Position numbers and translations under genes: made by a program. A stretch of DNA of 55,832 bases from Bdellovibrio sp. (GTDB lineage: Bacteria > Bdellovibrionota > Bdellovibrionia > Bdellovibrionales > Bdellovibrionaceae). Below, piece after piece: positions 1,108 through 49,659 of the stretch. The stretch covers positions 1 to 55,832 of the forward strand of contig JABWCO010000004.1 in assembly GCA_013360185.1 (NCBI GenBank). The letters are read 5' to 3'. Within the stretch, counting starts at the first letter, position 1; every line of letters starts with the position of its first letter. Under the pieces are notes generated by a model. That model made no database searches, had not been told where the DNA came from, and was given only the letters and a program-made list of their open reading frames with translations.

Positions 1108-2361
1108 TTAGTCGATACGGCGAATCTTAGCGCCCAAGCTTGAAAGCTTATCTTCCAATTTTTCATAGCCGCGATCCAAATGGTAAATACGATTTACAAC
1201 TGTTTCACCACTTGCAACCAAACCGGCAAGTACAAGCGAAGCGCTGGCACGCAAGTCTGTTGCCATCACGGGGGCGCCCGTTAACTTACCAGGCATTCCA
1301 CGCACGACAGCCACGCGAGTTTTCGGAGTAATATCTGCACCCAATCGAGTAAGTTCAGTCACGTGCATAAAGCGGTTTTCAAAAACAGTTTCAGAAATCA
1401 CGCTGGTTCCGTGCGCCACGGTCATCAAGGCCATGAATTGGGCTTGTAAGTCCGTTGGGAACAACGGGTGCGGAGCCGTTGTGATATCCACTGCCTCCCA
1501 CTGCTCACAAGGAAACACTGTCATTGTGTCTGCCGTCGTCTCAATTTTAAAACCAGATTCACGCATTTTCAAAATCAAGGCCTCAAGATGCGCGGGAACA
1601 CACTTCGTCACCGTCACTTGGCCTTTTGTGATCGCACCGGCGATCAACAAAGTACCAGCTTCAATACGATCTGGCATGATCGAGTGGACTGCAGGCTTAA
1701 GCTTCGTCACACCCTCAATACGAATCACGCTGGTTCCGTGGCCGGTGATTTTTGCGCCCATTTTATTTAAGTATTCAGCCAGGTCGACGATCTCTGGTTC
1801 TTTCGCAACGTTTTCAAGAATCGTTACTCCGTCAGCAAGTGTCGCAGCCATCATGATGTTTTCAGTTCCACCCACAGTTACGGTTTCAAAAAGAAATGTG
1901 GAACCTTTTAGTTTTTTGGCAGCAGCGTGAACATAGCCTTCTTTTTGCGTGATCTCTGCACCTAAAGCTGCAAAGCCCGCTAAGTGCAAATCAATCGGGC
2001 GACTGCCAATAGCGCAACCGCCGGGTTGAGACACGACAGCCTCGCCGTATTTTGCTAACATCGGTCCCATGCACAGAAAACTTGCGCGCATTTTACGAAC
2101 AAGGTCATAAGATGCTTCGTAAGATTGCAATGGACTGACGGTCACATGAAATTCATCGCCCACCCATTTTGTTTCACATCCCAAGCTTTGCAACAATTCA
2201 GCAGTGGATTCGATATCCTTTAATTTTGGAACATTTTTAAAAACATGGGTTCCTTCAGCAAGCAAAGATGAAAAAAGAATCGGCAAAGCCGCATTCTTTG
2301 CGCCACTCGTAGCTACAGTACCATTTAAAGGGCCATTGCCCGTTACAACCATTTTATCCAT
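1108..2361 (-). CDS. murA: UDP-N-acetylglucosamine 1-carboxyvinyltransferase
   Basis: MurA transfers enolpyruvate from phosphoenolpyruvate to UDP-GlcNAc, the first committed step of peptidoglycan synthesis, in the cytoplasm. The 417-residue length is normal for the family. The catalytic cysteine is present in GGCAIGSRPIDLH near residue 115, the site attacked by fosfomycin, and the N-terminal signature GAKNAALPI is intact. The start overlaps the end of prmC by 8 bp, so the two are probably translated together. It is the last gene of the minus-strand rpmE-prfA-prmC-murA run. Identification is secure. Confidence 0.97.
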   Translation of the reverse strand: MDKMVVTGNGPLNGTVATSGAKNAALPILFSSLLAEGTHVFKNVPKLKDIESTAELLQSLGCETKWVGDEFHVTVSPLQSYEASYDLVRKMRASFLCMGPMLAKYGEAVVSQPGGCAIGSRPIDLHLAGFAALGAEITQKEGYVHAAAKKLKGSTFLFETVTVGGTENIMMAATLADGVTILENVAKEPEIVDLAEYLNKMGAKITGHGTSVIRIEGVTKLKPAVHSIMPDRIEAGTLLIAGAITKGQVTVTKCVPAHLEALILKMRESGFKIETTADTMTVFPCEQWEAVDITTAPHPLFPTDLQAQFMALMTVAHGTSVISETVFENRFMHVTELTRLGADITPKTRVAVVRGMPGKLTGAPVMATDLRASASLVLAGLVASGETVVNRIYHLDRGYEKLEDKLSSLGAKIRRID

Positions 2362-3235
2362 TAGTTACTCCACGAATGACTCTATCATGACCAGAAAGGT
2401 CTTTGATGACACTTATTTCGTTAAATATTTTTAAGCCAGAAAAATGCTCTTTCATTGATGGGCCCTGACTCATACCCATTTCCATCAACATAATTCCGTC
2501 GCTGCTTAAATGTTTGCTGTAAATGTCGGACCAACTTTTTAGCAAAGCCAGACCCTCATTTTCAGCATAAAGAGCAGTGTTCGGTTCAAATTTTTTGACG
2601 TTCTCTTCAACTTGCGGATCGTTATGCGCGATGTAAGGCGGATTTGAAACCAGTGCGTCGACTTTGTCTTTGCCGACGAACTCTTTGTATGCTGACATAA
2701 CTGCCTCGGCGTCCGCAGCGTCTGCATTTACAAAACGCACGCGGTCGGAAACCTCTAAAGCTTGGGCATTTTTTCGTGCGACCTGTAGCGCACTTTCAGA
2801 TAGGTCAACGGCGATAAGTAGAGCGTGCGGAAATTCTTTAAGTAAACTTAAGCCAATACAACCTGAGCCACAGCCAAGATCCACAAAACCGAATTTTTCA
2901 TTTTTATCTTTCGCCCACGCGATCACATCTTCAACAATGTGTTCTGTTTCTGGGCGCGGGATTAAAACATTCGAGTTCACTTCAAAGCGATGACCAAAAA
3001 AATCTCGATACCCAAGGATATAAGCAACAGGTTCCCCCGAAGCGCGGCGACGAACCAGTTCACGCAAAACAGTCAGCTCGTCATCTTTCATCGGCTGATC
3101 AAAACGAAGATAAAGCTGAATACGCTCAAGCTTCAACCCATGAGCCAGCAAAAGCTCGGCATCCAATCGAGGGCTCTCAATTTTTTTATCTCTAAAAAAA
3201 GTGGTCGTTTTATCAAGAATTTCTTTTAACTTCAT
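2354..3235 (-). CDS. prmC: Peptide chain release factor N5-glutamine methyltransferase
   Basis: PrmC methylates the glutamine of the GGQ motif of release factors RF1 and RF2 using S-adenosylmethionine. The 293-residue protein has the helical N-terminal substrate-binding part, the SAM-binding loop DLGCGSGCIGLSLL near residue 120, and the class-defining NPPY motif (SNPPYIAHND) near residue 195. Its substrate gene, prfA, lies just upstream on the same strand, the usual pairing. The prfA-prmC gap is unusually long (about 250 bp) because a structured repeat element occupies it. The 3' end overlaps the murA start. Confidence 0.96.
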   Translation of the reverse strand: MKLKEILDKTTTFFRDKKIESPRLDAELLLAHGLKLERIQLYLRFDQPMKDDELTVLRELVRRRASGEPVAYILGYRDFFGHRFEVNSNVLIPRPETEHIVEDVIAWAKDKNEKFGFVDLGCGSGCIGLSLLKEFPHALLIAVDLSESALQVARKNAQALEVSDRVRFVNADAADAEAVMSAYKEFVGKDKVDALVSNPPYIAHNDPQVEENVKKFEPNTALYAENEGLALLKSWSDIYSKHLSSDGIMLMEMGMSQGPSMKEHFSGLKIFNEISVIKDLSGHDRVIRGVTNG

Positions 3236-3261
3236 CGGTTAAAATCTTACCTCTAAAAAGG

Positions 3262-3474
3262 GGACCGTTCAAAAGGATTCAATCGCAAGGCGGAGGATTC
3301 CCGCTGCCACGGAGGCGTACTCCAAGTACGCCGGTCTTGCCGAAGGCTAGCTTTCAGCTAGACAAGTCGGTTCCTCACACAAAAATAGCAGGAGGCTATT
3401 TTTGCGCGTTAGCCCGAAGGGTTGAAGGCAGGAGCCTTCAACAACGCAGTCGGATGGATCCTTTTCAACGGTCC
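3262..3474. repeat. Structured 213-bp intergenic element with terminal inverted repeats and four internal hairpins
   Basis: The ends are inverted copies of one another: GGACCGTTCAAAAGGAT at 3262-3278 and its reverse complement at 3458-3474, 16 of 17 positions matching. Inside are four near-perfect hairpins: GGCGTAC/GTACGCC (3314-3332), CTAGCT/AGCTAG (3347-3361), AAAAATAGC/GCTATTTTT (3381-3403) and GTTGAAGGC/GCCTTCAAC (3421-3442). The last two have AGGAG and AGGA loops on the plus strand. There is no open frame of useful length. Small size, terminal inverted repeats and lack of coding fit a MITE- or REP-type dispersed element, but only one copy is in this window. Confidence 0.65.
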
Positions 3475-3487
3475 TGGCGCCTTAAAA

Positions 3488-4558
3488 CTAAGTAGTCTGC
3501 TTCTTAAGTGCTTCGGCTTGGAAGTTCGCGACCAAAGGATCGATAAGTAAATCAAAAGATCCACTCATGACCTGATCCAATTGATGAATCGTCAAACCGA
3601 TACGGTGATCGGTGATGCGCGTTTGTGGGAAGTTATAGGTACGGATGCGCTCTGAACGATCGCCTGTACCGATTTGTTCTAAACGAACATCGGAAGCCTC
3701 TTTGCGGGCTTTTTCGTCTTCGATTTGTTGCAATTTAGCGTAAAGGATTTGGAAAGCGCGCTCTCTGTTGGCAGATTGCGATTTACCCTCTTGGCACTTT
3801 ACATCGATTCCCGTAGGGATATGCACGACACGAACCGCGGACTCTGTTCTGTTGACGGACTGACCGCCAGAACCTTGGGAACGCATAGTTTCAATACGCA
3901 CATCAGTCATTGGGATCTTGATTTCGTTAATCTCAACCTCTGGGATGACTGCGACTGTGACGGTCGATGTATGGATACGACCGGCAGCTTCAGTTTTTGG
4001 CACACGCTGAACGCGGTGAACACCGCTTTCAAATTTCATTTTACTGAATACGGAATCGCCCGTGATCGAAGCGATGATCTCTTTCGCTCCACCGGCATTG
4101 CCTTCGGAATAAGAAATCATTTCGACTTTCCAACCTTGAGAAGAAGCATAGTGAACGTAACCGCGGAACATTTCGTCAGCAAAAAGAGCTGCTTCGTCTC
4201 CACCGGCGCCGGCACGGATCTCTAGGATGGTATTTTTATCGTCGTTAGGATCTTTGGGAATAAGCGCGATTTTTAGTTCTTGTTCAAGCAACGGCAGGGC
4301 CGCTTCAAGCTCTTTAACTTCTTCGCGAATCATTTCGCGCATTTCAGGATCTTGTTCAGCTGTTAAAAGCTCTTTGCTGGCTTTTAGATTTTCCGTTTTC
4401 TTTTTGAAGTCACGGTAAGGAACCACGATCTTTTCAAGATGGCCAAGTTCTTTCATCAAAGCGCGGTACTGCGTTTGGTTTGAGGCAATATCTGGCCGCT
4501 GAAGAGACATATTTACTTCTTCATAGCGAGATTCAACTGCATCCAGTTTTGAGAACAT
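3488..4558 (-). CDS. prfA: Peptide chain release factor 1
   Basis: RF1 recognises UAA and UAG in the ribosomal A site and triggers release of the finished peptide. From the ATG at 4558 the protein has 356 residues, the usual size. This start is preferred over an in-frame one at 4612 because AGGAG sits 8 bases upstream and the sequence [15 protein letters not shown] matches the normal family N-terminus. The catalytic GGQ is in [19 protein letters not shown]. It is cotranscribable with rpmE upstream and prmC downstream, the enzyme that methylates this GGQ. Confidence 0.97.
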
Positions 4559-4633
4559 GGGAGTAACTCCTAGATCGGGCGCAAAATCGTGTTGAGATTC
4601 AGAAACGAACAAAGCCTTAGGGGCTTTAAAACA

Positions 4634-49520: not shown

Positions 49521-49571
49521 ACGAGCACGGCTGCTGACCAGGGCCTGAAAAGATTCATAAAGATCAAAATT

Positions 49572-49604
49572 AAAAAACCCAAGGTGTAAATCTTGGGTTT
49601 TTTT
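49572..49604 (+). terminator. Rho-independent terminator
   Basis: The stem AAAAAACCCAAG/CTTGGGTTTTTT with an 8-base loop ends in a seven-T run; it can also work on the minus strand for the protease gene ending at 49660. Confidence 0.9.
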
Positions 49605-49659
49605 ATGCAAGCACCGAAAGCGCTTGGGCCGAAGCCGGAGATAAAATTTTAACTGACGC

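Follow-up and report, generated by a model that had tools for sequence, protein, structure and literature searches.

The stretch from 3262 to 3474 of the Bdellovibrio sp. DNA analysed here (the window, 55,832 nucleotides) belongs to a large family that had not been catalogued before, made up of folded repeats of about 120 nucleotides which directly follow the stop codons of many genes in Bdellovibrio and across its phylum. Among known repeats it is similar to the REP elements of E. coli, but here the better fold is that of the strand lying opposite to the gene. The explanation we favour, with confidence and doubt about evenly balanced, is a dispersed REP/BIME-like family of miniature structured repeats that is mobilised as a single strand and kept at the 3' ends of genes.

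Coordinates of the element are given on the plus strand, the strand of the conserved fold, which is antisense to both neighbouring genes, prfA and prmC. Its termini are inverted repeats (3262-3278 and 3458-3474, with 16 of 17 positions matching; 18 of 20 when extended to 3262-3281 and 3455-3474), and internal hairpins are found at 3314-3332, 3334-3363, 3380-3404 and 3421-3442. The 17-bp inverted repeats, the four hairpins and the 213-bp size had been described in the original prediction, and the sequence confirms them. The fold is beyond chance, with RNA-fold z-scores of -6.8 for the plus strand and -7.7 for the minus strand, equalled by none of 200 shuffles. The outer stem pairs 3262-3269 with 3467-3474; its sequence is copy-specific and covaries between copies, and its 3' arm lies 12-13 nt from the prfA stop codon. 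It is followed inward by a C.C mismatch (C3270 with C3466), which is the lone mismatch of the 17-bp terminal repeat and is kept family-wide, and by an A-tract stem (3271-3281, pairing with 3455-3465). The core motif GCAAGGCGGAGG (3285-3296), near-invariant in the alignments and common to the Planctomycetota bins, provides the 5' side of an internal loop, and the core motif CAACGCAGTCGGATGG (3442-3457) provides the 3' side. The conserved apical hairpin CACGGAGGCGTACT...AGTACGCC occupies 3309-3332, with a GNAG tetranucleotide ahead of the hairpin, and an inverted repeat at 3334-3367 forms an additional hairpin specific to this copy. The segment 3378-3445 presents the loops AGGAG (3390-3394, in hairpin 3380-3404) and AGGA (3430-3433, in hairpin 3421-3442), exactly as had been predicted for the plus strand, together with a C(GAA)G hairpin (3413-3421).

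Partial matches to the element occur at several loci of its own genome and at many in congeners, and they resolve two modules: module A, of about 123 nt (query 11-80 plus 187-217), and module B, of 68 nt (query 123-192), which carries the AGGA hairpins. Fourteen pure A copies align as a 123-nt hairpin. A covariance model of module A (R1) matches 3263-3473 (72.6 bits, E 2.6e-14), and a model of module B (R2) matches 3378-3445 (89.6 bits, E 8.3e-23). The element is thus an A scaffold with B inserted. The same composite form is seen at L002, L015, L016, L034, L160, L163 and L175. Elsewhere in the window there is a weak module-B match at 49569-49645 (17 bits, E 0.004).

Matches to the R1 model number up to 552 and are spread over 21 of the 24 genus genomes, with eight in the genome of origin, a count that weak opposite-strand echoes of the palindrome may inflate; R2 finds about 127 matches in 23 of 24. 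Module A copy number per congener runs from 0 (G003, G004, G013) to 78 (G017). The same A element was found across Bdellovibrionota, with R1 and by direct reading, and also in Planctomycetota and Acidobacteria bins, within a longer inverted-repeat element. In several Planctomycetota-type copies the plus strand runs in the same direction as the upstream ORF, unlike in Bdellovibrio. Two contigs labelled Planctomycetota and Acidobacteria (L070 and L072) share a near-identical element and flanks, which is probably mis-binning, or else recent transfer. Two IMG/VR phage contigs of unknown host (L267, L268) carry the element; one search pattern gave none and a second gave these two, of which one is anchored to a stop codon in the usual orientation and the other is opposite. 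Among plasmid and phage GenBank records nearly no matches were found, with one Bdellovibrio plasmid match plus one weak match; the plasmid (AP029178.1:32509-32616) has an A-like element under an annotated hypothetical protein. No relevant Rfam family was obtained for module A or B at gathering or relaxed thresholds, and an identity with HEARO/omega-RNA was dropped for want of an Rfam match. The copies in its own genome, in congeners and in the phylum, together with the empty sites described below, support one of the possibilities raised in the original prediction, that the element is a dispersed repeat.

A copies are placed almost exclusively just past the stop codon of a gene. Among 93 best-scoring A copies, orthologous pairs included, 77 have a co-oriented upstream gene by simple ORF calls, and 78 begin within 9 nt past the stop of the upstream ORF in a stop-codon scan of ORFs of at least 60 codons. 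At the opposite end, 2 of 43 convergent genes are within 9 nt (p 1e-19 versus the upstream side). The A copies hold a single orientation relative to the upstream gene, TAG is over-represented among the anchoring stops (38/79 versus 79/259, p 0.005), and T is enriched behind the 93 copies as a T-rich 3' flank. Composite B-in-A and type-C forms mostly keep to this side of genes too, and their distance to the stop is often 0-34 nt; the orientation of stand-alone B copies is inconsistent. At L217 (G012:C1:767900-771100) and L223, A elements stand in tandem arrays of two or three. It may also be that insertion, and not only retention, is targeted to stop codons. This further explanation, a cross-phylum mobile structured family that inserts in one orientation and whose functional fold is antisense, is possible but on the improbable side, and we give the same tentative standing to its intermediate, a single-stranded DNA or an antisense RNA that some machinery would guide to gene ends.

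The prfA-prmC junction offers a comparison of occupied and empty sites. The gene for peptide chain release factor 1, prfA (3488-4612, minus strand, stop codon 3488-3490), is identified by its ORF and translation and has orthologues beside prmC in 23 genomes; prmC (2354-3235, minus strand, start at 3235), for the release factor glutamine methyltransferase, is the downstream ORF and is present in 24 of 24 congeners. In 18 of the 24 congeners the two genes are only 8-11 nt apart, which bears out the claim that the element separates genes that are normally adjacent and supplies the empty sites that had been proposed as a check, at this same junction. Elements are present there in G000 (A+B), G020 (A), and G018 and G001 (short A), with identical orientation in all; G008 and G014 have a gap with no recognisable element, and G007 is unreadable. 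As prfA-prmC is transcribed, the outer stem of our copy is directly followed by a T5 run (3255-3259, minus strand), and T is enriched behind the 93 copies as noted above; a simple scan finds no intrinsic terminator at 3262-3474. Since prmC is only 26 nt away, efficient termination would silence it unless there were read-through or an internal promoter. The element would reset or lower the coupling of prmC to prfA.

Where close species carry an element at the same gene, the copies are 97-100% identical. In more distant species, many pairs that share an upstream gene resemble each other no better than unrelated copies do, so there is both inheritance and turnover. At slyD, where the element occurs in 8 species, sister species have near-identical flanks and outer stem, and both arms of the inner stem have been replaced together. 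A fixed cis-acting RNA of the 3' UTR (a terminator or stabiliser), inherited vertically and non-mobile, whose copies came to differ through compensatory changes and by converting one another, would fit this conversion-like replacement, the occurrence at slyD in 8 species, the T-rich flank and the near-identity at orthologous loci of close species (0.97-1.0). We consider it unlikely, because the element is present or absent at prfA-prmC, with 18 empty sites, because the 79 upstream ORFs fall into 49 unrelated families, because congeners differ so widely in copy number (0 to 78), and because the fold is conserved on the antisense strand.

The strand of the fold can be read from the mismatches that the stems tolerate. 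An A.C pair on one strand is a G.T pair on the other. On the plus strand, A copies contain 337 G.T pairs versus 23 A.C pairs, and 94 versus 21 when the positions at which G.T is the majority are left out; the constraint thus lies on the plus strand. For 89 of the 91 copies the plus strand also has the more stable predicted RNA fold (on average -63.1 kcal/mol, compared with -50.0 for the minus strand), and the same holds for 24 of 24 copies from other genera and families. The copy at 3262-3474 is an energy exception (-99.2 for plus, -102.2 for minus). The plus strand in Bdellovibrio copies is antisense to the upstream gene, and it is on this antisense strand that the conserved fold of A lies. 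G.T is the best-tolerated mismatch in DNA as well, so the strand bias fits an antisense RNA and a single-stranded DNA alike. The UNCG and GNA loop classes of module B do not separate RNA from DNA, as each is the complement of the other.

A plus-strand transcript would present the AGGA loops of module B, and their likeness to CsrA/RsmA-binding RNAs had been raised in the original prediction. CsrB repeats read CAGGA(U/A/C)G. In module B, 58 of 88 copies have AGGAN as loop 1, thirteen have ATGAN and four ACGAA, while AGGA is kept as loop 2 by 64 of 88; a csrA gene is present in the genome itself. The loops themselves are kept in most B copies and a candidate partner exists, but the likeness holds in part: AGGA is read on the strand antisense to prfA-prmC, which leaves UCCU in the loops of the operon transcript, and the GGA core is missing from about 20% of loop 1 sequences. 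CsrA binding would be possible on the antisense strand only, and from these sequences we give it a low probability. Reading the sense-strand UCCU loops as anti-Shine-Dalgarno sequences was dropped, as loop 1 is mostly AUCCU and not CCUCC. The resemblance to CsrB and RsmZ lies in the AGGA hairpin loops of module B; the differences are that here there are two loops per copy and not many, that they are on the antisense strand, that they are embedded in a dispersed repeat and that they are known from sequence. An antisense RNA made from the plus strand, with the AGGA loops of B copies binding CsrA as a CsrB/RsmZ-like sponge, would agree with the conserved folding strand, with the C-AGGAU/A/G-G and C-AGGA-G loops on covarying stems in most of the 88 B copies, and with csrA. 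It is nevertheless quite doubtful: module A alone, the majority of the family, has no AGGA hairpin loops, part of loop 1 reads ATGAN or ACGAN, and no consistent promoter is seen (one 9/12 match inside the element). Moreover, a keyword search of the main text of the published transcriptome, which lists eight attack-phase sRNAs, turned up no such family (PMC3627812).

The prediction of a structured element with conserved hairpins is supported by strong covariation in both modules. The first alignment of 14 A copies had compensatory double changes in 25 of 42 pairs. When 95 A copies (91 of them distinct) are aligned, double-sided changes occur at 33 of 42 pairs and 98% of cells are paired, a percentage that leans towards structure because the alignment was fitted to the 14-copy structure. 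The safer evidence comes from controls and from sister species: 615 cells are double-sided, where shuffles give 129 and slid controls no more than 81, and the slyD comparison shows the two inner-stem arms changing together. For module B, 96.9% of cells are paired, with 259 double-sided cells versus 63 in shuffles. The resulting A scaffold has variable but complementary stems, an apex formed by the GNAG hairpin, and internal loops (GCAAGGCGGAGG, CACGNAGGCGTACT, CGACAACGCAG) that are nearly fixed across copies. Type-C elements with module B (L003, L022, L024, L157, L168) have near-perfect outer arms of 25-44 bp whose sequence is wholly copy-specific, and these arms look like flanking DNA duplicated in inverted orientation. 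Template switching between the arms at replication (quasipalindrome correction) could yield covariation without selection for the fold, and both the paired change at slyD and the type-C arms would suit it. We regard this as very improbable, for it predicts perfect palindromes, with any G.T and A.C mismatches left over in equal numbers, where 337:23 is observed, and the internal loops and the C.C mismatch are kept.

The label of a MITE-like element, under which the element was first described, is not borne out in its classical sense. Flanking target duplication, proposed as a check, was looked for over 93 copies and none was found (mean 1.78 nt versus 1.79 shuffled). The element shares with MITEs its shortness, its terminal inverted repeats and its lack of coding capacity; it differs in having no target-site duplication, ends that are unconserved between copies, and anchoring at gene ends. 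A classical DNA-transposon MITE moved by a DDE transposase would explain the inverted repeats, small size and dispersal, and it is extremely improbable given the missing duplication, a terminal sequence that covaries as a copy-specific stem, and the single orientation behind stop codons. No copy carrying a transposase gene was seen.

A link to RAYT was likewise sought. No RAYT/Y1 transposase was found in the genome of origin (a draft assembly, 96% complete). Y1_Tnp genes are present in 21 of 24 congeners, and their number does not follow copy number (59 copies and no Y1 in G012; 78 and one in G017; none and one or two in G003, G004 and G013). Among 40 Y1 loci, flanking by module A is not general; A lies near about four independent loci, at ordinary gene ends. 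RAYT ownership of A was therefore rejected, and the flanks of one Y1 subgroup carry a different repeat, GGGTATCGGTCAT. In this subgroup (L136, L138, L141, L146) the short repeats stand on one or both sides of the gene, a candidate separate REP family.

Comparison with REP/BIME repeats, which are GTAG-tagged and RAYT-associated (Nunvar 2010, PMC2817692; Di Nocera 2013, PMC3733652), shows how far the likeness goes. Both are palindromic, high in copy number, mostly extragenic and located at gene 3' ends, and both have covarying stems that tolerate G.T, over-represented TAG stops and no target duplication. GTAG REPs often supply TAG stop codons (PMC3733652), and E. coli REPs within 15 nt of stop codons have been reported to stall ribosomes or affect translation (PMC12306157). 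The differences are substantial: REP units are 20-40 nt whereas A and the composite are 123-213 nt, and A has conserved internal loops, a strict single orientation, anchoring at 0-8 nt, an antisense folded strand and no RAYT gene tied to it here. The GNAG ahead of a hairpin is a likeness in part: most copies have G[GTC]AG just before the apical hairpin, but it is internal and not terminal as are the GTAG/GTGG of REPs. Against a REP-like reading, no REP comes near the element in size, and it shares no sequence identity with REPs. As unit size and RAYT linkage were both tested and neither agrees, we do not claim membership of the REP/RAYT class.

The family has probably been noticed before. Aklujkar et al. 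(2009) described a 24-copy short RNA element in Geobacter, a larger conserved element that has the palindrome GRCGTAGCGCTGCTACGCC at its centre, and the reverse complement of this palindrome is exactly the apical hairpin of three Bdellovibrio copies (L159, L163, L231). Compared by the published palindrome only, the Geobacter element is probably of the same family. It too is found between operon genes (dapAB-dapL); the available passages of that paper have no analysis of structure, anchoring or strand and do not mention Bdellovibrio.

The REP-like explanation accommodates these observations as follows. The element would have spread as a non-autonomous unit through a single-stranded DNA hairpin of the plus strand, with the help of a mobilising protein; we infer single-strand mobilisation of this strand from the missing target duplication and the strand-specific G.T tolerance, and movement as a single-stranded hairpin is probable. 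A large hairpin 0-8 nt past the stop codon, with T-rich sequence behind it, would then form an mRNA 3'-end structure, and its action as such may be why copies persist at gene 3' ends. It could serve termination or insulation, act as a barrier to 3' exonucleases, or slow terminating ribosomes. That the element shapes termination, mRNA 3' stability or the translation stop is likely, even if conservation of the fold on the non-mRNA strand weakens a purely mRNA-based function.

These results add to bacterial repeats a large, well-defined and easily searched family that Rfam does not contain. With copies only a few bases from stop codons, REP-like function at gene ends becomes directly testable, whether this is termination, 3' stability, ribosome release or simple parasitism, and the bias of the fold towards one strand offers a way to approach, from sequence alone, which molecule is selected, single-stranded DNA or antisense RNA. 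In the predator Bdellovibrio, the element remodels conserved operons such as prfA-prmC.
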